Shown piece by piece: positions 6,240-53,930 of a stretch of 64,000 bases of DNA (within the stretch, counting starts at the first letter, position 1; each line of letters opens with the position of its first letter). The stretch comes from Chryseobacterium sp. Leaf201 (GTDB taxonomy: Bacteria > Bacteroidota > Bacteroidia > Flavobacteriales > Weeksellaceae). Under the pieces are notes generated by a model. That model did no database searches, was not told where the DNA came from, and saw only the letters and a list, made by a program, of their open reading frames with translations. A program made the position numbers and the translations under genes. The stretch lies in contig NZ_LMKA01000068.1 in NCBI RefSeq assembly GCF_001421435.1, positions 1 through 64,000 of the forward strand, written 5' to 3'.

Positions 6240-6716
6240 ATGAAAAATGCCAACATTATAGGCCTGCAGGAGGCCGATTGCCAAAAGATCGCTGAAAAAC
6301 TCAATATCCTTTTAGCCAATTACTCTGTTTTTTATCAGAATACCAGAGGTTCACACTGGAACATCAAAGGAGATCAGTTTTTTACATTACACCCGAAATT
6401 TGAAGAGCTTTATAACAGCCTGGTCCTGAAAATTGACGAGATTGCTGAAAGAATCCTGACACTGGGAGCAACCCCTGCCCACAATTATTCTGATTATTTA
6501 AAAATTGCGACCATCCAGGAAAGCCAGGAAGTAAGCGACGGTACGAAAAGTGTCGAAATTATTCTAAACTCGTTCAAAGTAGTCATTGATTTACAGAGAG
6601 AACTTCTGGATATCACAGATGCCGCCGGAGACGAGGGTACCAACTCACAGATGAGCGATTATATCACAGAACAGGAGAAGGAAGTCTGGATGTATAATTC
6701 TTATCTTGGTAAGTAA
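6240..6716 (+). CDS. dps: Dps-family ferritin-like DNA-protection protein
   Basis: From the ATG at 6240 the product has 158 residues. It contains NTRGSHWNIKGDQFFTLH followed by LVLKIDEIAERILTLG, the His, Asp and Glu pattern of the intersubunit ferroxidase centre of Dps mini-ferritins. Such proteins form dodecamers that oxidise and store iron and protect DNA in starvation or peroxide stress. The length is typical for the family. The gene is monocistronic: it has its own -7 box and a terminator 20 bases after the stop. Confidence 0.9.
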   Translation: MKNANIIGLQEADCQKIAEKLNILLANYSVFYQNTRGSHWNIKGDQFFTLHPKFEELYNSLVLKIDEIAERILTLGATPAHNYSDYLKIATIQESQEVSDGTKSVEIILNSFKVVIDLQRELLDITDAAGDEGTNSQMSDYITEQEKEVWMYNSYLGK

Positions 6717-27684: not shown

Positions 27685-29652
27685 TTAAAACTTCATCCTT
27701 TGAATTCTTACAGCGTTTAAAATAGCTAACAATGCCACTCCTACATCGGCGAAAACAGCTTCCCACATCGTTGCAATACCTCCGGCACCCAGAGCCAGAA
27801 CCATTGCTTTTACAGAAAATGCCAGAATAATATTCTGCCAGACGATTTTTTTTGTCTGCTTCCCGATGTTGATCGCCATCGGGATCTTGCTCGGCATATC
27901 ATCCTGAATCACCACATCTGCGGTTTCAATGGTTGCATCGCTTCCCAGTCCGCCCATAGCAATTCCCACATCGCTTAGCGCGACAACCGGAGCATCATTC
28001 ACCCCGTCACCGACAAAAGCTACGGTTTCTTTTTTAGATTTAATTTCTTTGACCTTATTTACTTTATCCTCCGGAAGCAGGTCTCCATAAGCATTTTGAA
28101 TCCCCAGTTTACCGGCAACAAATTGTACAACGGAAGTTTTATCGCCGCTGAGCATTGTTGTTTTGACATGTAATGCTTTTAATTTATTGATTGTTAACTG
28201 AGCATCTGCTTTGATGGAATCTGCAATCGTGAGGTAGCCGACAAATTTTTTATCGTAAGCAACAGCAATTAAAGTATAGACGATATTTTCAGGTTTGATG
28301 TCATAGCTGATGTTGAATCTGTCGAGTAATTTAAAATTCCCGACTAACAGTTCCTTCGCATTAACGGCAGCTTTTAATCCATAACCGGCAATTTCCTCTA
28401 CATTTTCCAGTTGAACAGTATGATCGATTTCGCCGGCGTATTCATGAATGGCAGTAGCAACCGGATGTGAACTTTTACTTTCCAGCGCATTGATGAACTT
28501 TAAAATTTCATCTTTATTAAAGTCATTTTTAAAATTAACCTCCTGTACTTTGAAAACACCTTCTGTCATCGTTCCGGTTTTATCCATGACCACATGCTGC
28601 ACTTTTGCCAGAACATCTAAAAAGTTGCTTCCTTTAAATAAAATTCCGTGACGGCTTCCTGCGCCAATCCCCCCAAAATACCCTAACGGAATGGAAATCA
28701 CCAAAGCGCATGGACAGGAAATTACCAGAAATACCAACGCACGGTACAGCCAATCCCTGAACAGATAATTTTCGACAATAAAATAAGGCAAAAACGTAAT
28801 CCCAATGGCCAAAAATACAACAATCGGGGTATACACTTTTGCAAATTTTCTGATAAAGAGTTCGGTGGGAGCTTTCTGTGCCGTTGCATTCTGAACCATT
28901 TCCAGGATTTTACTCAGCTTGCTGTCTTTGTATGCTGTGGTGACTTTTACTTGGCTGACGGTATTCAGATTGATCATTCCGGCTAAGACGGTTTCACCTT
29001 TTATTTTGGTATCCGGTTTACTTTCACCCGTTAACGCTGAGGTATTGAATGAAGCTGTTTCGGATAATAATTCGCCGTCCAGTCCTAACTTTTCCCCGGA
29101 TTTCAACTGAATGATTTCCCCAATATTTACTTTTTCCGCTTTCAGGGTTTGCGGGTTTCCGTCTTTCAAGACTGTTACCTCATCAGGACGCTGGTCGAGC
29201 AGGGTTTTGATGTTACTTTTCGCTCTCGTTACGGCCATTGCCTGAAAAACTTCACCAACGGAATAGAAGAGCATCACGGCAACCCCTTCCGGATATTCTC
29301 CGATCCCAAAGGCACCGACGGTTGCAATTCCCATCAGGAAAAACTCAGAAAAAACATCGCCATGCCTTATACTTTCATATGCTTCTTTCAGAACCGGCAA
29401 TCCAACCGGTACATAAGCGATTAAATACCAGACCAGGCGGATCCAATCTTTAAACCAACCGGGTTGTATGTAATAATCCAATACAATTCCGATCACTAGC
29501 AATGTAAAGGAAATCATTGCAGGCAGAAACATCTGAAAGGCTGACTGATCTCCCGTATCATGAGAATGATCATGGTCGTGTTCATGACCTTCATGATCAT
29601 CGTGGTTATGTTGAGGTTGTTTTTTCGGTTCAGTACTGCAGCATTCTTCCAT
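27685..29652 (-). CDS. heavy-metal translocating P-type ATPase (Zn/Cd type)
   Basis: The 655-residue pump exports divalent metals with ATP. The His-rich N-terminus (roughly residues 14-36) replaces the usual ferredoxin-like HMA domain and probably binds zinc. The core has the membrane motif SCPCALVIS, the phosphorylation site DKTGTMTEG, the HP dipeptide in KSSHPVATA and the hinge GDGVNDAP, which fit the P1B-2 (Zn/Cd/Pb/Co) class. It is the last gene of the efflux operon, 44 bases after the Fur-family regulator gene. Confidence 0.95.
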   Translation of the reverse strand: MEECCSTEPKKQPQHNHDDHEGHEHDHDHSHDTGDQSAFQMFLPAMISFTLLVIGIVLDYYIQPGWFKDWIRLVWYLIAYVPVGLPVLKEAYESIRHGDVFSEFFLMGIATVGAFGIGEYPEGVAVMLFYSVGEVFQAMAVTRAKSNIKTLLDQRPDEVTVLKDGNPQTLKAEKVNIGEIIQLKSGEKLGLDGELLSETASFNTSALTGESKPDTKIKGETVLAGMINLNTVSQVKVTTAYKDSKLSKILEMVQNATAQKAPTELFIRKFAKVYTPIVVFLAIGITFLPYFIVENYLFRDWLYRALVFLVISCPCALVISIPLGYFGGIGAGSRHGILFKGSNFLDVLAKVQHVVMDKTGTMTEGVFKVQEVNFKNDFNKDEILKFINALESKSSHPVATAIHEYAGEIDHTVQLENVEEIAGYGLKAAVNAKELLVGNFKLLDRFNISYDIKPENIVYTLIAVAYDKKFVGYLTIADSIKADAQLTINKLKALHVKTTMLSGDKTSVVQFVAGKLGIQNAYGDLLPEDKVNKVKEIKSKKETVAFVGDGVNDAPVVALSDVGIAMGGLGSDATIETADVVIQDDMPSKIPMAINIGKQTKKIVWQNIILAFSVKAMVLALGAGGIATMWEAVFADVGVALLAILNAVRIQRMKF

Positions 29653-29696
29653 AACTTAAAATTTTAATCAAAATTAAATACAAATCTGATGCAACA

Positions 29697-30116
29697 CTAT
29701 TGCAAACTTTCCAGGCAGTTTTCACAGATGCCTTTGGCGAAAAGCCGTATTTCATCAATCCTGAAATTTGCCTGAACATTCTCCGGAAAAGAAATTTCCT
29801 CTTTACAGGTGGTCTGTCTGCAGATTTTACAGTAAAAATGAAGATGCCGGTCTTTATGGGTAGTTTCATTGCAGCCATCATGGCAAAGCTTATATTTAGT
29901 GGTCGTATTTTCCTGAATGCTGTGAACAATTCCTTTTTCTTCAAAAGTTTTTAAGGTTCTGTAAATGGTTGTGCGGTCTGCATTTTCAAAATAACTTTCA
30001 ATTTCCGATAAAGACAAAGCTGTTTCCTGAGAGTTTAGAAAATCATACACCAAAATCCTCATGCTGGTGGGTTTTGTGTTTTTATTTATTAATTTATTTT
30101 CGGTATCTTTTTTCAT
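29697..30116 (-). CDS. Fur-family metal-responsive regulator (Zur-like)
   Basis: The 139-residue protein has a winged-helix N-terminus (ALSLSEIESYFENADRTTIYRTLKTFEEKGI) and a metal-binding C-terminus with DRHLHFYCKICRQTTC and GICENC, the paired-cysteine structural zinc site and histidines of Fur proteins. It lies between the adaptor and ATPase genes of the efflux operon, 12 bases after the adaptor stop, so it probably controls this operon. The target may be the palindrome at 35887. Which metal it senses is unknown. A start at an internal ATG (30062) is possible. Confidence 0.9.
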   Translation of the reverse strand: MKKDTENKLINKNTKPTSMRILVYDFLNSQETALSLSEIESYFENADRTTIYRTLKTFEEKGIVHSIQENTTTKYKLCHDGCNETTHKDRHLHFYCKICRQTTCKEEISFPENVQANFRIDEIRLFAKGICENCLESLQ

Positions 30117-30128
30117 AATGCAGGTCTG

Positions 30129-31376
30129 TTAATGTTCATGTTCTCCGGAATTGGTCAGTTTTGCATTGATAAAAAATGCTCCTTTTACAGCGATTTTTGT
30201 CTTGGAAGAAATTTCTTTTACAGCAGTAATAGCCGTGTAGCCCATATCAGATGAACCTTTTACCACTTCTATCTTCTCAAAGTTAACGATTTTAGATTTC
30301 TGCTTTACCCGGCTTTCATTTTTTTCACTATAATGTGCATGATCCGTTTCCTGGTTTTGTGCGGTTTCCACAAATATGTAGAATTTGCCGTCTGCCTCTA
30401 CAATCGCTTCATCAGGAATGGCAGGAGTTGTGGTTTTATCAAGGCTTACGATTCCGGTGATGTTCATTCCGTCGATCAGTCCGGTTTTATTTCCTGTCAC
30501 ATCAGCATGAACGGAAATGGTCTTGCTGTCGTTTTCAAACGAGGACCCGATGCTGTAAATGGCTGCATCATATTCGATTTCCGGATTATTGGTCAGCTTA
30601 AAATGTACCACCTGCCCAACCTTCATTTTAGGCAGGTCTTTTTCAAATACCTGAAGATCAAGATGGATGGAATGGTTATCAATAATTTCTGCAACCGGAG
30701 AAGAGATATCTGTATAACTGCCGATCTGTGCGGAAATACTGCTGACGGTACCGCTAATCTGTGCTGTAACGGCAAGACCCGATCTCATATTTCCGTTGCT
30801 CACTTTTCCCGGACTGATGCCCATCATCTGAAGCTGCTTCAGAAGAGACGCTTTTTTTGTCCTTAAGGCTTTAAGTTCCGCCTGTGCATTCTGCAGGTTT
30901 TTCTTTGCACCGGCATCATTGTCAAAAAGTTCTTTCTGCCGGCTGTACTCCTGTTCCGCATAGGTAATCCGGCTGTCTGATGTAAGGTATTCTTCCTGTA
31001 ACTGAATGAATTCCGGATTGGCTATGGTTGCAATCACCTGTCCTTTTCTTACAAAACTCCCGACCTGAACATTGAGCGTTTTAATGATTCCCCCGTACAG
31101 GGAAGTTACTGTTGCTTTGTTATTGTTCGGAACCCTGAGCAGGCCATTGGCTTTGATGGTGGAAGTCAGTTCTTTCATCTCGACTGTCCCCAGTGTAATT
31201 CCGACAGCTTTGATCTGTTCTTCCGTTAATGAAACCACTGACTGCTGATTTTCTGTATGGCCTTCGGTTTGTTCTGTTTCCTGTTCAGAATGTTCAGGTA
31301 CATTTTCTTTTTTACCGCAGCTTACCATAAGAACGGCGGTACATAAAAAATATATGATTGTGTATTTAAGTTTCAT
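30129..31376 (-). CDS. czcB: RND efflux periplasmic adaptor, CzcB-like lipoprotein
   Basis: The 415-residue membrane-fusion protein begins with a lipobox (LMVSCG, cysteine about residue 20) and a Glu/His-rich linker. The lipoyl half-motifs GGIIKTLNVQVGSFVRKGQVIATI and VSSISAQIGSYTDISSPVAEI flank a coiled-coil hairpin (about 130-190). Together with CzcA it links the pump to the outer-membrane channel. A His-containing loop (TDHAHYSEKNES) near the C-terminus may bind metal. Its ATG starts two bases after the CzcA stop, so the two are coupled. Confidence 0.93.
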   Translation of the reverse strand: MKLKYTIIYFLCTAVLMVSCGKKENVPEHSEQETEQTEGHTENQQSVVSLTEEQIKAVGITLGTVEMKELTSTIKANGLLRVPNNNKATVTSLYGGIIKTLNVQVGSFVRKGQVIATIANPEFIQLQEEYLTSDSRITYAEQEYSRQKELFDNDAGAKKNLQNAQAELKALRTKKASLLKQLQMMGISPGKVSNGNMRSGLAVTAQISGTVSSISAQIGSYTDISSPVAEIIDNHSIHLDLQVFEKDLPKMKVGQVVHFKLTNNPEIEYDAAIYSIGSSFENDSKTISVHADVTGNKTGLIDGMNITGIVSLDKTTTPAIPDEAIVEADGKFYIFVETAQNQETDHAHYSEKNESRVKQKSKIVNFEKIEVVKGSSDMGYTAITAVKEISSKTKIAVKGAFFINAKLTNSGEHEH

Positions 31377-31377
31377 G

Positions 31378-34300
31378 CTATTTGTTGATAAGTGAGTTAA
31401 TCATAATCACAGATTCGTTAACCTGCTGAATGGATTCTAAGTATTTTAACTGGATATTCGTTGCGGTCTGTAAGGCAAAAAGATATTCCACATAAGAGAT
31501 TTCTCCTGTTTTATAGCCTAACTGCGCTGCCTTCACCATTTTTTCCGCATTGGGGACAGCCTGGCTGATATAATAATGATATTGCTGAACATCCTGCCTG
31601 TATTGGTTCAGGGTATTTTCCAACTGTGCCAAAAGTTGTTTCTGCTGCTGTCTGGCATTGATTTCTGCCGTCTGTTTCTGATATTCCCAGGACTGGATTC
31701 TTGCTTTTGCTGCTCCGAAACTTAACGGAATGGCAATCCCTAAGGTTACGGAACTGAAGCGGTCTCCTGCATTGTAAAACCGCTCCTGCCCATTTCCTGT
31801 ATGAAATCCGATCAATGACTGGTTGGTATAACCGAGGCTGAATTCGGGAAGCGCCTGAGACTTTTCAACATTTTTATTTTTTTCGGCAATTTCTATTTCC
31901 TGATAGAAAGATTTTACCGCAGGGTTATTGGTGAATGATGTACTGTCTAGTACTATTTCTGCCTGTAAAGGGAGGTAGTCTTTATTCAAAGGGATCTCAA
32001 AAGTTTCAGTAGTATTCAGTAGTATGCTTAAGTTCTTGTATGCATTCTGTATATACACCTCATTCTGCCTTAATAGAAGACTGATTTCACCTTTCTGCGT
32101 TTCTGCAGTACTGATTTCGACCTTTTTAATATCCCCGGCTTTAAATCTTACCGTAGCAATCCGGATGAAATCCTGGTACAGGCTGTCAAGATTTTTTAGT
32201 TTTAACTGATTGTACTGCAGGTATTCAATCTGATAATAATAGGTTCTTACCTGCTTTACCAGTTCGTTCACTGCCACCTCTCTGTCAATCTGCCGGCTTT
32301 TGACGCTCTCGGAAATCAGCTCTTTTCTTGCCCTGAACAAAGTAGGGAAAGGAATGCTCTGTGAAATAGAAACCGACTGGTCAAATTTCGGGCTGTTGTA
32401 CTGTCCCAGCTGAGCCTCAGCATTGAGCTTGGGAAGCTCATTTGCCGTTTTTTTAAGGGCTTCCGCAGATTGTATGCTCAGGGTTTTAGATTTAAGGCTT
32501 AGATTATTCTTTACAGCCATTTCCATTGCCGTTTCAATGGAAAGCTGTTGCGACTGTGCTTTAAAAACATGTCCCGAAAGCAGAAATCCGATGATCAGAA
32601 CCGGCATTATTAGTTTCAACCCGATCCTTTTTCTCGAAATTTTCGAATTAAAAATAATATACAACAGGGGCAGAACGAATAAAGTAAGAAAAGTGGCCGT
32701 CACCAGGCCGCCGATGACTACCGTTGCCAGGGGCTTCTGCACTTCTGCGCCGGCACCTGTAGAAATTGCCATCGGTAAAAATCCCAAAGAGGCAACAGTG
32801 GCTGTCATTAAAACCGGCCTCAGCCTTGCTTTTGTTCCTTCCAATACCCTTTTCACCATATCATTTTCGCCTTCTTTTTCCAATTCATTGAAAGTGCTGA
32901 TCAAAACAATTCCGTTCAGGACAGCAACACCGAAAAGAGCAATAAAACCGATCCCTGCACTGATGCTGAAAGGCATATCCCTTATAACCAAGGCAAAGAC
33001 ACCTCCGATTGCACTCATCGGAATGGCAGTAAAAATCAAAGCAGCCTGCCTGAATGAGTGAAAAGTACCGTACAGCAGCATGAAGATCAGCAGCAGGGAA
33101 ACCGGCACTGCAATCATCAGCCGCCGGCTTGCCGCCTGCAGGTTTTCAAACTGTCCTCCGTAGGTAAAATAATAACCGGACGGCAGTTTTAAGGTATTCA
33201 GTTTCTCCCGGATGTCTTTCACTACATTTTCCACATCCCGGTCTTTCACATTAAATCCGATGACAACTCTCCGCTTCCCTTCTTCACGGCTGATTTGCGC
33301 GGGACCAAGTTTATAGCTGATATCAGCCACCTGAGAAAGCGGGATCTGGGCTCCAGAACGGGTAGCAACCATCAGGTTATTCACATCATCAATATTTGTC
33401 CTGTGCAGGCTGTCAAGACGGACGACCAGATCAAAACGCCGTTCATTTTCAAAAACCTGACCGGCACTTTTTCCTGCGAAAGCGGTGCTTACCACATCGT
33501 TTACTTCTTCAATATTCAATCCGTAATTGGCCATCCGTATCCTGTCATAAGCTACATTGATCTGGGGAAGACCGCTGATCTGCTCAATTTGCGGAGTGGT
33601 TACCCCGTCAACCGACTGAATAACTTTTCCTGCCTGATCTGCATATATTGCCAGTGAATCTAAATTTTCACCGAAAATTTTCACGGCTACATCCTGGCGC
33701 ACTCCTGTCATCAGTTCATTAAACCGCATCTGGATCGGCTGGTTTTTTTCAAAAAACACACCGGGAATAACTTCCAGTTTTTTCAGGATTTCATCTGACA
33801 GCTCTTCATAGGACTTATCGGTCTTCCACTCACTCCGGGGTTTTAATACAACGATTAAATCTGAAGCTTCGGGCGGCATGGGATCAGTAGGAACCTCTGC
33901 AGAACCTGTTTTCCCGATAACCATTTTTACTTCTTCAAATTCTTTGATTATTCGGGAAGCCTGCATTGAAGTTTCAATACTTTGGCTTAATGAGCTTCCC
34001 TGCGGTAAAATGCAGTGAAATGCATAATCTCCCTCCTGTAGCTGGGGAATAAATTCGCCGCCCATATTTTTAAAAATAAATACCGTAACAATAAAGACTG
34101 CCAGAGTAACTGAAACGACAAGATATTTTATGCTGACTGCTTTTTTCAGCAGAGGCTGATACACCTGCTGTAGCCTCCTCATCATTTTATCGGAAAACGT
34201 TTCTTTACATGTTCTGCTTTTAGATAAAAACAAAGCACTCATCATCGGGATGTACGTTAATGATAAAATCAGTGCCCCCAAAATAGCAAACCCCACTGTT

Positions 34301-35736
34301 TTTGCCATAGGCGTAAACATCTTACCTTCCACACCTGCCAAAGTAAGAACCGGGATATAAACAATAAGGATGATGATCTCTCCGAAAGCAGCACTGTTTC
34401 TGATTTTTGAAGCAGAAAGAAAAACCTCTTCATCCATTTCTTTCTGAGAAAGCTTCTGTACAGATTTTCTCAGGCCTAAATGATGAAGCGTGGCTTCAAC
34501 CATAATAACCGCTCCATCTACGATCAGACCAAAATCAATGGCTCCGAGGCTCATCAAATTAGCACTTACCCCAAAGACATTCATCATTCCCAATGCAAAT
34601 AATAGAGAAAGCGGGATTGCCGAAGCAACAATCAATCCTGCCCGGAGGTTCCCAAGGAAAATGACCAGGACAAAAATAACGATCAGGGCACCTTCCACTA
34701 AGTTTTTTTCTACGGTTTCCATTGCCCTGCCTACCAGGTCGGTCCGGTCAAGAAAAGGCTCTATGACAATGTCATCCGGGAGCGATTTCTGAATGGTGGG
34801 GATTTTTGCTTTGATATTTTTAACCACTTCATTACTGTTGTCTCCTTTTAGCATCATAACCACTCCGCCCACCGCATCTACTTTTCCGTTGTACGTCATG
34901 GCTCCGTAACGCGCGGCACTGCCAAAATGTACTTCTGCCACATCTTTCACAAAAACAGGGACGCTCCCCGTTTCATTTTTTACGGCAGTGTTCTTTATAT
35001 CATCCAGTGAAGTAACGACCCCGATTCCGCGGATAAAATAAGCATTCGGTTTTTTATCAATATAAGCACCACCTGTATTGCGGTTATTTTTTTCCAGCGC
35101 ATTAAAAATATCGGTAATGCTTACCCCCATTGCTTTAAGGCGGTTGGGATCTACAGCCACTTCGTATTGTTTGAGCTGCCCTCCGAAACTGTTGACTTCC
35201 GCGACTCCGGGTGTTCCGTTAAGCTGTCTGCGGACAATCCAGTCCTGCATGGTCCGGAGCTCTCTGGAATCATATTTATTTTCACTTCCTTTTCGCGGAT
35301 GAAGAATATACTGATAGACTTCACCCAGGCCTGTGCTTACAGGAGCAAGTTCAGGGGTTCCGGTTCCTGCCGGAATGTCTTCTGCAGCTTCTTTTAGTTT
35401 TTTATTAATCAGCTGACGGGCGAAGTACGGATCTACCTCTTCTTTGAAAACAACGGTAATTACCGACAGCCCAAACCTTGAGATACTTCTTGTTTCTTCG
35501 ATGTTGGGAATATTGGCAATGCTTTGCTCAATAGGAAAAGTAACCAGCTGTTCAACTTCCTGCCCCGCTAAAGCCGGACACACTGTAATAATCTGAACCT
35601 GATTATTTGTAATATCAGGAACGGCATCAATTGGTAATCTTGTCGCGCTCCAAACACCCCAGATTACCAGCAACAAGGTCATCATACCAATAACGATCTT
35701 GTTTTTGATACTGAATTTTATGATTTTATCTAACAC
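31378..35736 (-). CDS. czcA: CzcA-type metal RND pump fused to a TolC-like outer-membrane channel
   Basis: The pump part (about residues 1-1035) carries the HME-RND motif DFGLIVDGAV plus the nearby VEA glutamate in TM4, typical of Zn/Co/Cd exporters rather than the Cu/Ag class. A membrane segment then leads into a TolC/CzcC-like domain (from about 1045: LSIETAMEMAVKNNLSLKSK, TYYYQIEYLQYNQLKLKNLD). This one-polypeptide fusion is common in Bacteroidota. I prefer the GTG at 35736 (1452 residues, LDKIIKFSIKNK), which matches the usual N-terminus. An ATG at 35844 would add 36 residues unlike the family. Confidence 0.92.
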   Translation of the reverse strand: MLDKIIKFSIKNKIVIGMMTLLLVIWGVWSATRLPIDAVPDITNNQVQIITVCPALAGQEVEQLVTFPIEQSIANIPNIEETRSISRFGLSVITVVFKEEVDPYFARQLINKKLKEAAEDIPAGTGTPELAPVSTGLGEVYQYILHPRKGSENKYDSRELRTMQDWIVRRQLNGTPGVAEVNSFGGQLKQYEVAVDPNRLKAMGVSITDIFNALEKNNRNTGGAYIDKKPNAYFIRGIGVVTSLDDIKNTAVKNETGSVPVFVKDVAEVHFGSAARYGAMTYNGKVDAVGGVVMMLKGDNSNEVVKNIKAKIPTIQKSLPDDIVIEPFLDRTDLVGRAMETVEKNLVEGALIVIFVLVIFLGNLRAGLIVASAIPLSLLFALGMMNVFGVSANLMSLGAIDFGLIVDGAVIMVEATLHHLGLRKSVQKLSQKEMDEEVFLSASKIRNSAAFGEIIILIVYIPVLTLAGVEGKMFTPMAKTVGFAILGALILSLTYIPMMSALFLSKSRTCKETFSDKMMRRLQQVYQPLLKKAVSIKYLVVSVTLAVFIVTVFIFKNMGGEFIPQLQEGDYAFHCILPQGSSLSQSIETSMQASRIIKEFEEVKMVIGKTGSAEVPTDPMPPEASDLIVVLKPRSEWKTDKSYEELSDEILKKLEVIPGVFFEKNQPIQMRFNELMTGVRQDVAVKIFGENLDSLAIYADQAGKVIQSVDGVTTPQIEQISGLPQINVAYDRIRMANYGLNIEEVNDVVSTAFAGKSAGQVFENERRFDLVVRLDSLHRTNIDDVNNLMVATRSGAQIPLSQVADISYKLGPAQISREEGKRRVVIGFNVKDRDVENVVKDIREKLNTLKLPSGYYFTYGGQFENLQAASRRLMIAVPVSLLLIFMLLYGTFHSFRQAALIFTAIPMSAIGGVFALVIRDMPFSISAGIGFIALFGVAVLNGIVLISTFNELEKEGENDMVKRVLEGTKARLRPVLMTATVASLGFLPMAISTGAGAEVQKPLATVVIGGLVTATFLTLFVLPLLYIIFNSKISRKRIGLKLIMPVLIIGFLLSGHVFKAQSQQLSIETAMEMAVKNNLSLKSKTLSIQSAEALKKTANELPKLNAEAQLGQYNSPKFDQSVSISQSIPFPTLFRARKELISESVKSRQIDREVAVNELVKQVRTYYYQIEYLQYNQLKLKNLDSLYQDFIRIATVRFKAGDIKKVEISTAETQKGEISLLLRQNEVYIQNAYKNLSILLNTTETFEIPLNKDYLPLQAEIVLDSTSFTNNPAVKSFYQEIEIAEKNKNVEKSQALPEFSLGYTNQSLIGFHTGNGQERFYNAGDRFSSVTLGIAIPLSFGAAKARIQSWEYQKQTAEINARQQQKQLLAQLENTLNQYRQDVQQYHYYISQAVPNAEKMVKAAQLGYKTGEISYVEYLFALQTATNIQLKYLESIQQVNESVIMINSLINK

Positions 35737-35863
35737 AAATTGAGATTTAATTTGTGACTGCCTGTTGATGTTAAACACGAAATATGCAGAGGTTTTCTTT
35801 AACAGCTGACTGTTGTAAGATCGCAAAAGCATTGTATCCGGCAAAAATGAAGACAGGCAGTCA
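35734..35863 (-). promoter_or_regulatory. potentially structured leader of the metal-efflux operon
   Basis: On the mRNA, TGACTGCCTGT (35863-35853) is perfectly complementary to ACAGGCAGTCA (35765-35755). The 87-base loop contains AACAG/CTGTT. Directly after comes an eight-pair hairpin, CACAAATT/AATTTGTG (35756-35749 with 35741-35734), whose last three bases are the GTG start. If the true start is the ATG at 35844, this region is instead coding. Confidence 0.45.
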
Positions 35864-35886
35864 TTAATTTATTTAAATATTTAAAT

Positions 35887-35918
35887 TCTGTTATTCATGA
35901 ATAACAGATGCAAAAATA
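35887..35918 (-). promoter_or_regulatory. promoter with a 22-bp perfect palindrome (candidate Fur/Zur operator)
   Basis: The minus strand -7 box TATTTTTG (35918-35911) is followed by the arms TCTGTTATTCA and TGAATAACAGA (35887-35908), a perfect palindrome covering the expected transcript start. TGTTAT...ATAACA resembles known Zur boxes. The operon encodes a Fur-family protein, the likely ligand. Confidence 0.6.
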
Positions 35919-35975
35919 TCATGAAGAGCCCTGCAACTATATGGCAAAGTTTCAAGTATTAAAAATTAATGAAAA

Positions 35976-36299
35976 TTAAATCTTAGGCGGCTGCCAGATA
36001 TGGTCGTAAACCTGGTAAGCGAAGTTGTTCTTCCGGAAAAGAATCTTCTTTGAAAAGTATGCCTGAACCTGAGTGGGAATTCCGATTAAAACATCCAGTT
36101 TTAAGGCGGTAACCGTCATCTGGCAGCAGTTGCAGACACATAACGGAGAACATACATCTCCTTTATCTTTTGAATGGGATTCTTCAACACTGAAAAACTG
36201 CTGTGTATGGTTTGGACCTGATTGATTCTGCACATCTTCACAAGGCACCAGTGATAGCGCCATGAAATAAAATGCCAGTATAAATCTTAAAAGGTTCAT
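35976..36299 (-). CDS. DUF6660-type small Cys-rich protein
   Basis: The 107-residue product has an N-terminal signal or membrane segment, a DVCSPLCVCNCCQ cluster of five cysteines at about residues 48-59, and the ending DHIWQPPKI typical of DUF6660 proteins. These are commonly encoded next to heavy-metal efflux operons in Bacteroidota. A role in metal sensing or trapping in the envelope is likely but unshown. It has its own promoter, and the efflux operon downstream has another, so it is a separate or partly linked unit. Confidence 0.78.
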   Translation of the reverse strand: MNLLRFILAFYFMALSLVPCEDVQNQSGPNHTQQFFSVEESHSKDKGDVCSPLCVCNCCQMTVTALKLDVLIGIPTQVQAYFSKKILFRKNNFAYQVYDHIWQPPKI

Positions 36300-36304
36300 A
36301 TGGA

Positions 36305-36312
36305 CAAAGGTA
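36305..36312 (-). promoter_or_regulatory. promoter box abutting the DUF6660 gene start
   Basis: The minus strand reads TACCTTTG, ending five bases before the ATG at 36299. It predicts a leaderless or nearly leaderless transcript. Confidence 0.55.
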
Positions 36313-36356
36313 AAGATTTTCTGTAAAAGGGAATCATTTAAATAAACGGTATAAAA

Positions 36357-36382
36357 AAGAGCAGCCTAAAAAGACTGCTCTT
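36357..36382 (-). terminator. minus-strand intrinsic terminator
   Basis: AAGAGCAG (36357-36364) pairs with CTGCTCTT (36375-36382), followed on the minus strand by TTTTTT. It lies downstream of the broken surface-protein gene and upstream of the DUF6660 gene. Confidence 0.75.
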
Positions 36383-36405
36383 ACATACAAACCACTTCCT
36401 CACAG

Positions 36406-53691: not shown

Positions 53692-53879
53692 TCTTAAATA
53701 TGCAATTATGCATGAGTCATTATAAACCTTTAATATAATATGCTTTACATATTTCACTACATTTATAAATCATTAAATCACTTTATAGTTATAAAAAACT
53801 TGTCTGCTTTCTAACCTTTAACACTTTCATTGTAATAACATAAATATTGTTTAGAATTATTATAAATTACTAAATATAA

Positions 53880-53907
53880 AAAGCCTGCTTTTTAAAAAGC
53901 AGGCTTT
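53880..53907 (-). terminator. intrinsic terminator of the rimP-nusA-infB operon
   Basis: AAAGCCTGCTTTT (53880-53892) pairs with AAAAGCAGGCTTT (53895-53907). The minus strand ends in TTTTTATATTT, about 25 bases after the infB stop. Confidence 0.9.
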
Positions 53908-53930
53908 GATTATTATCTCAAAATGATAAA

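Follow-up and report, generated by a model that had tools for sequence, protein, structure and literature searches.

A putative 5' mRNA hairpin and a candidate Fur-type box at the promoters of a metal-efflux operon of Chryseobacterium sp. Leaf201

Gene content and promoters of the efflux operon

The DNA analysed here, called the window, is a stretch of 64,000 nucleotides from Chryseobacterium sp. Leaf201 (contig NZ_LMKA01000068.1, positions 1 to 64,000). It contains a metal-efflux operon on its minus strand, in which a DUF6660 gene lies upstream, followed by a czcA-czcC fusion, czcB, a fur gene and a gene for a P1B-type ATPase. The genes and promoter elements are, in the direction of transcription:

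35976..36299, minus strand: gene for a DUF6660 small protein, 5' of box 1, preceded by a -7-like box of its own, TACCTTTG, at 36305-36312
35931..35947, minus strand: box 1, candidate Fur-family operator TTGCCATATAGTTGCAG (consensus TTGCAATNNNRTTGCA), 12 nt 5' of the -7 box; the window copy is degenerate
35911..35918, minus strand: -7 box TATTTTTG (TAnnTTTG) of the czcA promoter, seen in the window and as the same block in an alignment of 60 regions
35887..35908, minus strand: 22-bp perfect palindrome TCTGTTATTCATGAATAACAGA, most likely the DNA of a 5'-terminal czcA mRNA hairpin (stem UCUGUUAUU / AAUAACAGA, loop CAUG)
31378..35736, minus strand: czcA-czcC fusion ORF (RND pump and outer-membrane factor); the GTG start is a reading judged from the conserved GTGTTAGATA start region
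30129..31376, minus strand: czcB, periplasmic adaptor
29697..30116, minus strand: Fur-family regulator gene, 139 aa (Pfam FUR 29.8 bits, cut-off 23.1)
29689..29705, minus strand: box 2, TTGCAATAGTGTTGCAT, spanning the fur stop codon, 5' of the ATPase gene
29669..29676, minus strand: -7 box TAATTTTG belonging to the ATPase promoter inside the operon
27685..29652, minus strand: P1B-type ATPase with a His-rich N terminus, assigned by cadmium/zinc family models (TIGR01512 477.7 bits, cut-off 313.5)

An earlier note on this DNA had described a Fur-family gene between czcB and the ATPase gene, and the open reading frames and profile scores bear this out. CzcA and CzcC are encoded by a single ORF in the window, and no in-frame stop was found in three more operons that were checked (L155, L156 and L161). 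A scan for promoters of the sigma-70 type gave one match compared with a mean of 2.5 in shuffled sequence, i.e. below expectation.

The DUF6660 gene appears in a similar setting elsewhere. Its box TACCTTTG is located 13 nt 5' of the start codon in the window, and TAnnTTTG occurs at most 25 nt from the start in 59 of 59 sequences. In the 200 nt preceding the gene in these 59 sequences, the closest match to the Fur-type box described below has at least three mismatches. At loci L155, L156, L197 and L223 that box precedes the DUF6660 gene, so the promoter may have moved there. A terminator-like hairpin with a T-run is present 5' of the gene at 36357-36382 of the window.

A Fur-type box at the czcA and ATPase promoters

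Leaders of czcA were collected from the best 80 of 335 named loci that carry this fur gene. The 59 loci with czcA plus DUF6660 within 10 kb upstream were combined with the window to give 60 regions; the remaining 21 were omitted from the czcA-leader counts. Alignment of the 60 regions revealed a conserved block, AACTTTGCAATaccATTGCAG...GATATTTTTGC, and the conserved DNA element is TTGCAAY-N3-RTTGCA, a 7-1-7 inverted repeat of the Fur type and hence a candidate operator. Compared with its 17-nt core, 55 of the 60 czcA boxes have at most two mismatches and three have three, while the window has four and L036 six. A box search allowing one mismatch found matches in 40 of 40 genus genomes and exposed a further copy that recurs where fur ends.

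This second copy is found 5' of the ATPase gene, at the same spacing, in all 80 of the best 80 loci. In 79 of them fur ends with [T/A]TGCAATAG, continuing into non-coding NRTTGCA; TAnnTTTG (63 loci) or TAnnTTTA (16 loci) follows at the same distance, and the ATPase gene begins at most 100 nt further on. At the 80th locus, L077, the ATPase gene lies about 2.2 kb past fur; TTGCAATAGCATTGCA, a complete box, and TACCTTTG are positioned right before it, which indicates that the box accompanies the ATPase gene. The repeat TGCAATA-N-TATTGCA, or a near form of it, is kept at box 2 and is imperfect at box 1 of the window; binding to either is predicted from sequence. Among the boxes that were parsed, 57 of 59 at czcA and 75 of 78 at the ATPase gene have exactly 12 nt separating the 17-mer from TAnnTTT. 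The left half of box 2 is coding where it overlaps the end of fur, which counts against it as evidence for a binding site; boxes clear of fur at L077, L184-L187 and L189-L193 answer this objection in part.

Association with the ATPase gene was also seen among 40 further loci, from other genera and paralogues, that were selected for the similarity of their fur (41-85%). A box, scored if it had at most one mismatch and a -7 box equally far away to within a base, was present at 27 of 30 loci with a downstream ATPase gene and at three of 10 without. The exceptions are L212, L216 and L218, with the ATPase but no box, and L194, L196 and L223, with a box but not this ATPase (at L223, DUF6660-czcA is next). 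At L194 and L196 a box and a -7 box just 3' of fur precede a 198-aa membrane-like protein of unknown kind that replaces the ATPase. Loci L061 and L073 have an extra TTGCAATAGNATTGCA box about 137-139 nt 5' of fur, with no czc operon nearby.

The protein encoded in the operon is a member of the Fur superfamily. It scored 32.6 bits against the NCBIfam Zur equivalog (cut-off 167) and 21.3-29.1 bits against the PerR and Fur equivalogs (cut-offs 180-220), below the cut-off in each case, and its best relative of solved structure in a phmmer search is E. coli Zur (E 2.7e-5). Residues C96, C99, C131 and C134 are invariant in 35 aligned proteins; they form two CxxC pairs, which we take to be the structural zinc site of the superfamily. 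The ligand-type residues C78, C82, H91, H93 and C104 are likewise invariant, in the aligned paralogues too, and therefore cannot separate efflux sensors from uptake sensors; an assignment of metal specificity from protein residues was discarded on this ground.

The genome has a second Fur-family gene (C62, locus L159), which is divergent from genes for MerC-like and CobW-family proteins and is accompanied by TGCAACAAAGTTGCA. Tandem boxes of the type TGCAAC-N3-GTTGCA are located between the paralogue and the MerC/CobW genes (6410-6424 and 6448-6462 of L159, on G000 contig 62); the second copy has one mismatch and overlaps a -7 box. CobW/COG0523 proteins are usual targets of Zur, and the paralogue is likely to be Zur itself, with the tandem boxes as its sites. 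This sister box differs from that of the operon by one base per half. A general Zur pattern overlapping the -7 box, TANNTTTGCAAYNNNRTTGCA, was found in 13 of 148 family genomes, several of these matches being efflux boxes with a chance TA on the 5' side, so that a general position for Zur was not confirmed and the contrast with Zur rests on few loci.

A map of transcription start sites in F. psychrophilum places TAnnTTTG at -12 to -5 (PMC9723704). By this measure the 17-mer would extend from about -41 to -25, centred at about -33. It is thus not upstream of -35, unlike the activating Zur sites of the Caulobacter and Streptomyces type. At 124 TAnnTTTG sites, a TTG on the 5' side is most frequent at gaps of 19 and 20 nt (seven each), a spacing norm for -33 that is based on 14 of the 124 sites; other gaps have about two each, apart from six at 15 and five at 26. 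The boxes place TTG at gaps 15 and 26. Their N3, which occupies the place of the gap-19 TTG, is TTG in none of 58 parsed czcA boxes (parsing failed for L036 and L072 among the 60 regions). The fixed distance between box and -7 box, together with the absent TTG at -33, fits an activator that replaces the -33 contact, and on these grounds activation by the metal-bound protein is favoured over repression that metal releases.

Release from repression is nevertheless a live rival, since the box overlaps the -33 region, where Zur sites repress elsewhere. The Fur protein would then repress from the box in its apo or low-metal form and be released by metal, in the manner of ArsR and CsoR repressors. 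Zur sites of Caulobacter that overlap promoter elements repress, the activating site being upstream of -35 (PMC4176598), action of an apo form is reported within the Fur superfamily (PMC6613475), and the second box of the paralogue in the same genome overlaps a -7 box, which is a repressor position. Repression, however, needs no particular spacing, and here the distance to the -7 box varies by no more than a base or two from promoter to promoter and from genus to genus; nor do the parsed czcA boxes offer a -33 TTG at the usual gap. We regard derepression as about half as probable as activation, and as the strongest of the rival explanations.

The distribution of box and regulator was determined in 148 genomes of the family. 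The pattern TTGCAAYNNNRTTGCA-N12/13-TAnnTTTG gave 95 matches in 76 genomes, and the reversed pattern gave none in the same 148; the 21 spacings from 14 to 34 together yielded 16, spread over 12 genomes. At E 1e-25, 85 of the 148 have the fur clade. Box and fur were both present in 73 genomes and neither in 60, while 12 had fur only and three the box only (Fisher p 2e-25, kinship between genomes being ignored). A listed fur match is located no more than 1.5 kb from 67 of the 95 boxes and no more than 10 kb from 79. For the 16 that remain, every listed match is either over 10 kb distant or on a different contig. Among them are the sole boxes of seven genomes that belong to a single genus (g40), and none of these is near a fur match; for boxes remote from fur, the link, if real, acts in trans.

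These 16 boxes, the 12 genomes with fur alone and three with the box alone, and locus L161, which has a box and no fur match in the 13 kb around it, are what would be expected if another, unlinked factor bound the box and fur were a passenger. Against this stand the 73 genomes with both box and fur and the 60 with neither, the 79 boxes close to a fur match, the 7-1-7 shape that the box shares with Fur-family sites, and its likeness to the one next to the Fur-family paralogue. A passenger role of fur is therefore considered improbable.

At the level of the class, the pattern was found in 16 of 295 genomes. Thirteen of 17 matches were examined, the four from the window's own genus being omitted. 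Efflux genes lie 3' of the box in other genera and families as well: the next gene encodes a P1B ATPase in three cases and a membrane-fusion protein, a cation-efflux (CDF) protein or a DUF6660 protein in one case each. One further match is followed by a weak DUF6769 match just past the end of a fur-like gene, and one by a ZIP transporter gene that starts 190 nt from the box (L236). Five of the 13 have no evident link to efflux, the genes being those for an AraC-type HTH protein (L225), methyltransferases (L230 and L231), a UPF0175 protein (L237) and a transglutaminase-like protein (L239); at L239 the box is at the end of a fur-like gene.

The palindrome at the czcA transcript start

The 22-bp palindrome reported in the earlier note is present as described, with no mismatch and no spacer. 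So is the -7 box, but it does not directly adjoin the palindrome as claimed, since two bases (CA) intervene. The window contains two perfect palindromes of at least 22 bp, compared with a mean of 0.07 and a largest count of one in 60 first-order Markov simulations. Three palindromes of this size were found in 400 kb of a congener, so finding one in these genomes is, by itself, only moderately unusual, and this one gains its significance from its place and from hairpins at the equivalent place in other species. Another strong palindrome, with 25-nt arms that are 88% complementary and a long perfect core, is located at 53873-53914 of the window.

The note had taken the palindrome for an operator and had proposed a search of related genomes as a check. 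Allowing up to three mismatches, the sequence was found in one of 59 genomes, the window's own, and in none of the 58 others, although the 35 congeners among them all carry the fur gene at 84-91% identity. A genus-wide operator was rejected on this ground, lack of conservation being an outcome that the note itself had named as refuting its reading. The Fur protein was found in 48 of 48 genus genomes, with best matches of at least 78% identity; a wider draw of genomes contained one congener, G205, that lacks both the protein and the box. Two other readings were discarded. An Rfam search of 35650-36050 returned RsaJ alone, at 13.5 and 14.7 bits compared with a threshold of 100, which leaves no known RNA family; and the palindrome is not followed by a T-run in the window and is absent from a terminator scan of 35700-36400, so a terminator was rejected.

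What recurs is a dyad. Most of the 60 regions have one directly 3' of the -7 box, of differing sequence (e.g. CTGCAGCTTATAAGCTGCAG in L060 and CTGTCATTTTCAAATGTCAG in L052). The 26 nt following the -7 box fold with a mean of -6.2 kcal/mol in the 60 czcA leaders, 82% of them at or below -4 kcal/mol. The corresponding values are -0.8 kcal/mol and 5% for 124 other TAnnTTTG sites, -0.2 kcal/mol and 2% for the 26 nt that come after these in the czcA leaders, and -0.3 kcal/mol and 0 of 79 for the ATPase leaders. Relative to their own dinucleotide shuffles, the czcA leaders have a mean z of -2.0, and 47% of the 60 are in the lowest 5%. As the leaders are related sequences, these and the following hairpin statistics are not independent.

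Covariation was assessed by exchanging the 3' halves of the dyads between species (L036 was omitted from these tests, its -7 box having been misplaced in parsing). Native pairs gave -6.5 and swapped pairs -3.7 (sd 0.25; n = 53), with none of 2000 permutations as good as the native set; 19 divergent representatives gave the same outcome, the native value being outside the swapped ones. Two of three controls, the next 28 nt and the ATPase leader, were null. The third, 5' of box 1, was also positive, which counts against specificity and is probably due to a second hairpin in that stretch in other species. Inverted repeats of the TTTAGAAAG...CTTTCTAAA type were observed between the DUF6660 stop codon and box 1 in several species (e.g. 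L086, L088 and L099), the window not being listed among them.

Of 81 distinct leaders, 67 have a more stable fold on the mRNA strand than on its complement, and 12 a less stable one. When folding was started at the predicted +1, the mRNA strand was better in 41 and worse in six of 54, and the arm swap there gave 0 of 1000. Stems were also identified with G-U pairing disallowed, and their interiors contain 17 G-U pairs compared with 7 A-C mismatches. Since selection on a DNA palindrome would not yield a difference between strands, this asymmetry points to a hairpin in the mRNA. Counting against it, the hairpin of the window is weak when folded from the predicted +1 (-3.9 kcal/mol, z -0.96), and in L032-L034 the equivalent position shows no clear hairpin. 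On balance, a 5'-terminal hairpin of the mRNA, at a predicted transcript start, is the best reading of the palindrome, and the perfectly symmetrical form in the window is the version of one species.

A DNA operator, be it for the Fur protein of the operon or for a second regulator, would account for a 22-bp dyad without mismatch that overlaps the predicted start of the transcript, and for arms that begin 2-3 nt past the -7 box in 39 of 59 leaders, i.e. 1-2 nt 5' of the predicted +1, where outer pairs of a hairpin may fall outside the transcript. It would be hard to reconcile with a sequence that varies from species to species while Fur is so well conserved, with ATPase promoters that have the same Fur-type box and no such hairpins, or with the strand asymmetry, and we hold it to be quite improbable, slightly more so than a passenger fur. 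Least probable of all is a chance or terminator structure with no role at the 5' end, as the covariation and the specificity of place outweigh the fact that perfect palindromes of this size are not very rare, and the features of a terminator are missing.

Proposed control of the operon and known systems

Taken together, it is rather probable that the palindrome encodes a 5' hairpin of the czcA mRNA and that the operon's own Fur protein binds both TTGCAAY boxes, inducing efflux in response to zinc or cadmium; induction itself is likely. The Fur protein would bind box 1 and box 2 and, at high zinc or cadmium, the bound protein would turn on the RND pump and the ATPase, acting as an activator that replaces the -33 contact at promoters without a TTG at -33. 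The czcA mRNA would then start with a short hairpin at its 5' end or at most two bases from it. In other bacteria, 5'-terminal hairpins guard the ends of transcripts from decay, and the hairpin would most likely shield the 5' end of the czcA transcript in the same way. In Chryseobacterium sp. PMSZPI, cadmium is reported to raise czcA 13-fold and cadA 7-fold (PMC6532875), genes that may be orthologues of those of this operon.

Activation of efflux by Fur-family proteins is already known. Zur of Caulobacter crescentus activates the CC2720-26 operon (czrCBA and zntA) with zinc (PMC4176598), Zur of Streptomyces coelicolor activates zitB (PMC5472717), and Fur of Bacillus subtilis activates the P1B4 ATPase PfeT under metal excess (PMC9993123). 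The earlier note had considered that direct control of efflux would need reverse logic or a distinct sensor, and that the circuit may be unusual. A logic opposite to repression of uptake is likely here, but the activation of efflux genes by Zur in Caulobacter and Streptomyces provides precedents. Of the Fur-controlled efflux circuit that the note proposed, control by the operon's own Fur protein is retained, as an inference, and the palindrome as its operator is not.

The closest likeness is to Caulobacter, where a Fur-family protein with zinc turns on an operon holding an RND pump and a P-type ATPase, as we propose here. The account of that system describes a general Zur, a site 5' of -35 and no promoter found before zntA (PMC4176598), whereas here the regulator is encoded within the operon and boxes centred at about -33 are present at both promoters. 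In Streptomyces, a 7-1-7 box close to the promoter mediates the activation of an exporter with zinc, which resembles what is suggested for the present operon; the box is 8 nt 5' of -35, the exporter is of the CDF type, and the same Zur represses uptake, with no dedicated paralogue described (PMC5472717). B. subtilis shares the activation of a P1B ATPase by Fur in metal excess and differs, as described in its source, in the metal (iron), in the use of two global regulators, Fur and PerR, in the P1B4 class and in having no RND operon (PMC9993123). ZntR of Riemerella anatipestifer is a regulator of zinc homeostasis in the Weeksellaceae, but is of the MerR family by annotation in the cited account and not the operon's Fur-type gene (PMC11960050). 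The in-operon dedicated regulator, the two boxes at about -33 with near-invariant spacing and the covarying 5' hairpin appear to be new; in the titles and abstract openings that were searched, largely outside the subscription literature, no description of the TTGCAAY box, this Fur clade or a covarying 5' hairpin was found.

More tentatively, many Bacteroidia may possess a dedicated Fur-type activator of efflux, sister to Zur, whose box is placed on the -33 region at a near-invariant 12 nt from the -7 box, so that the protein takes the place of the missing -33 element; to this Chryseobacterium would add, on the czcA transcript, a 5' hairpin cap that evolves fast in sequence and is conserved in structure. 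If true, this promoter geometry would be unlike the activation by Zur from upstream of -35 described so far. The palindrome illustrates that a striking dyad in a promoter can be RNA structure, for which covarying pairing and a folding difference between strands are a simple discriminator. The analysis offers a testable operator, promoter geometry and regulator for zinc and cadmium efflux in a large group of Bacteroidia, and shows how the position of a box could wire a Fur-type sensor for induction.
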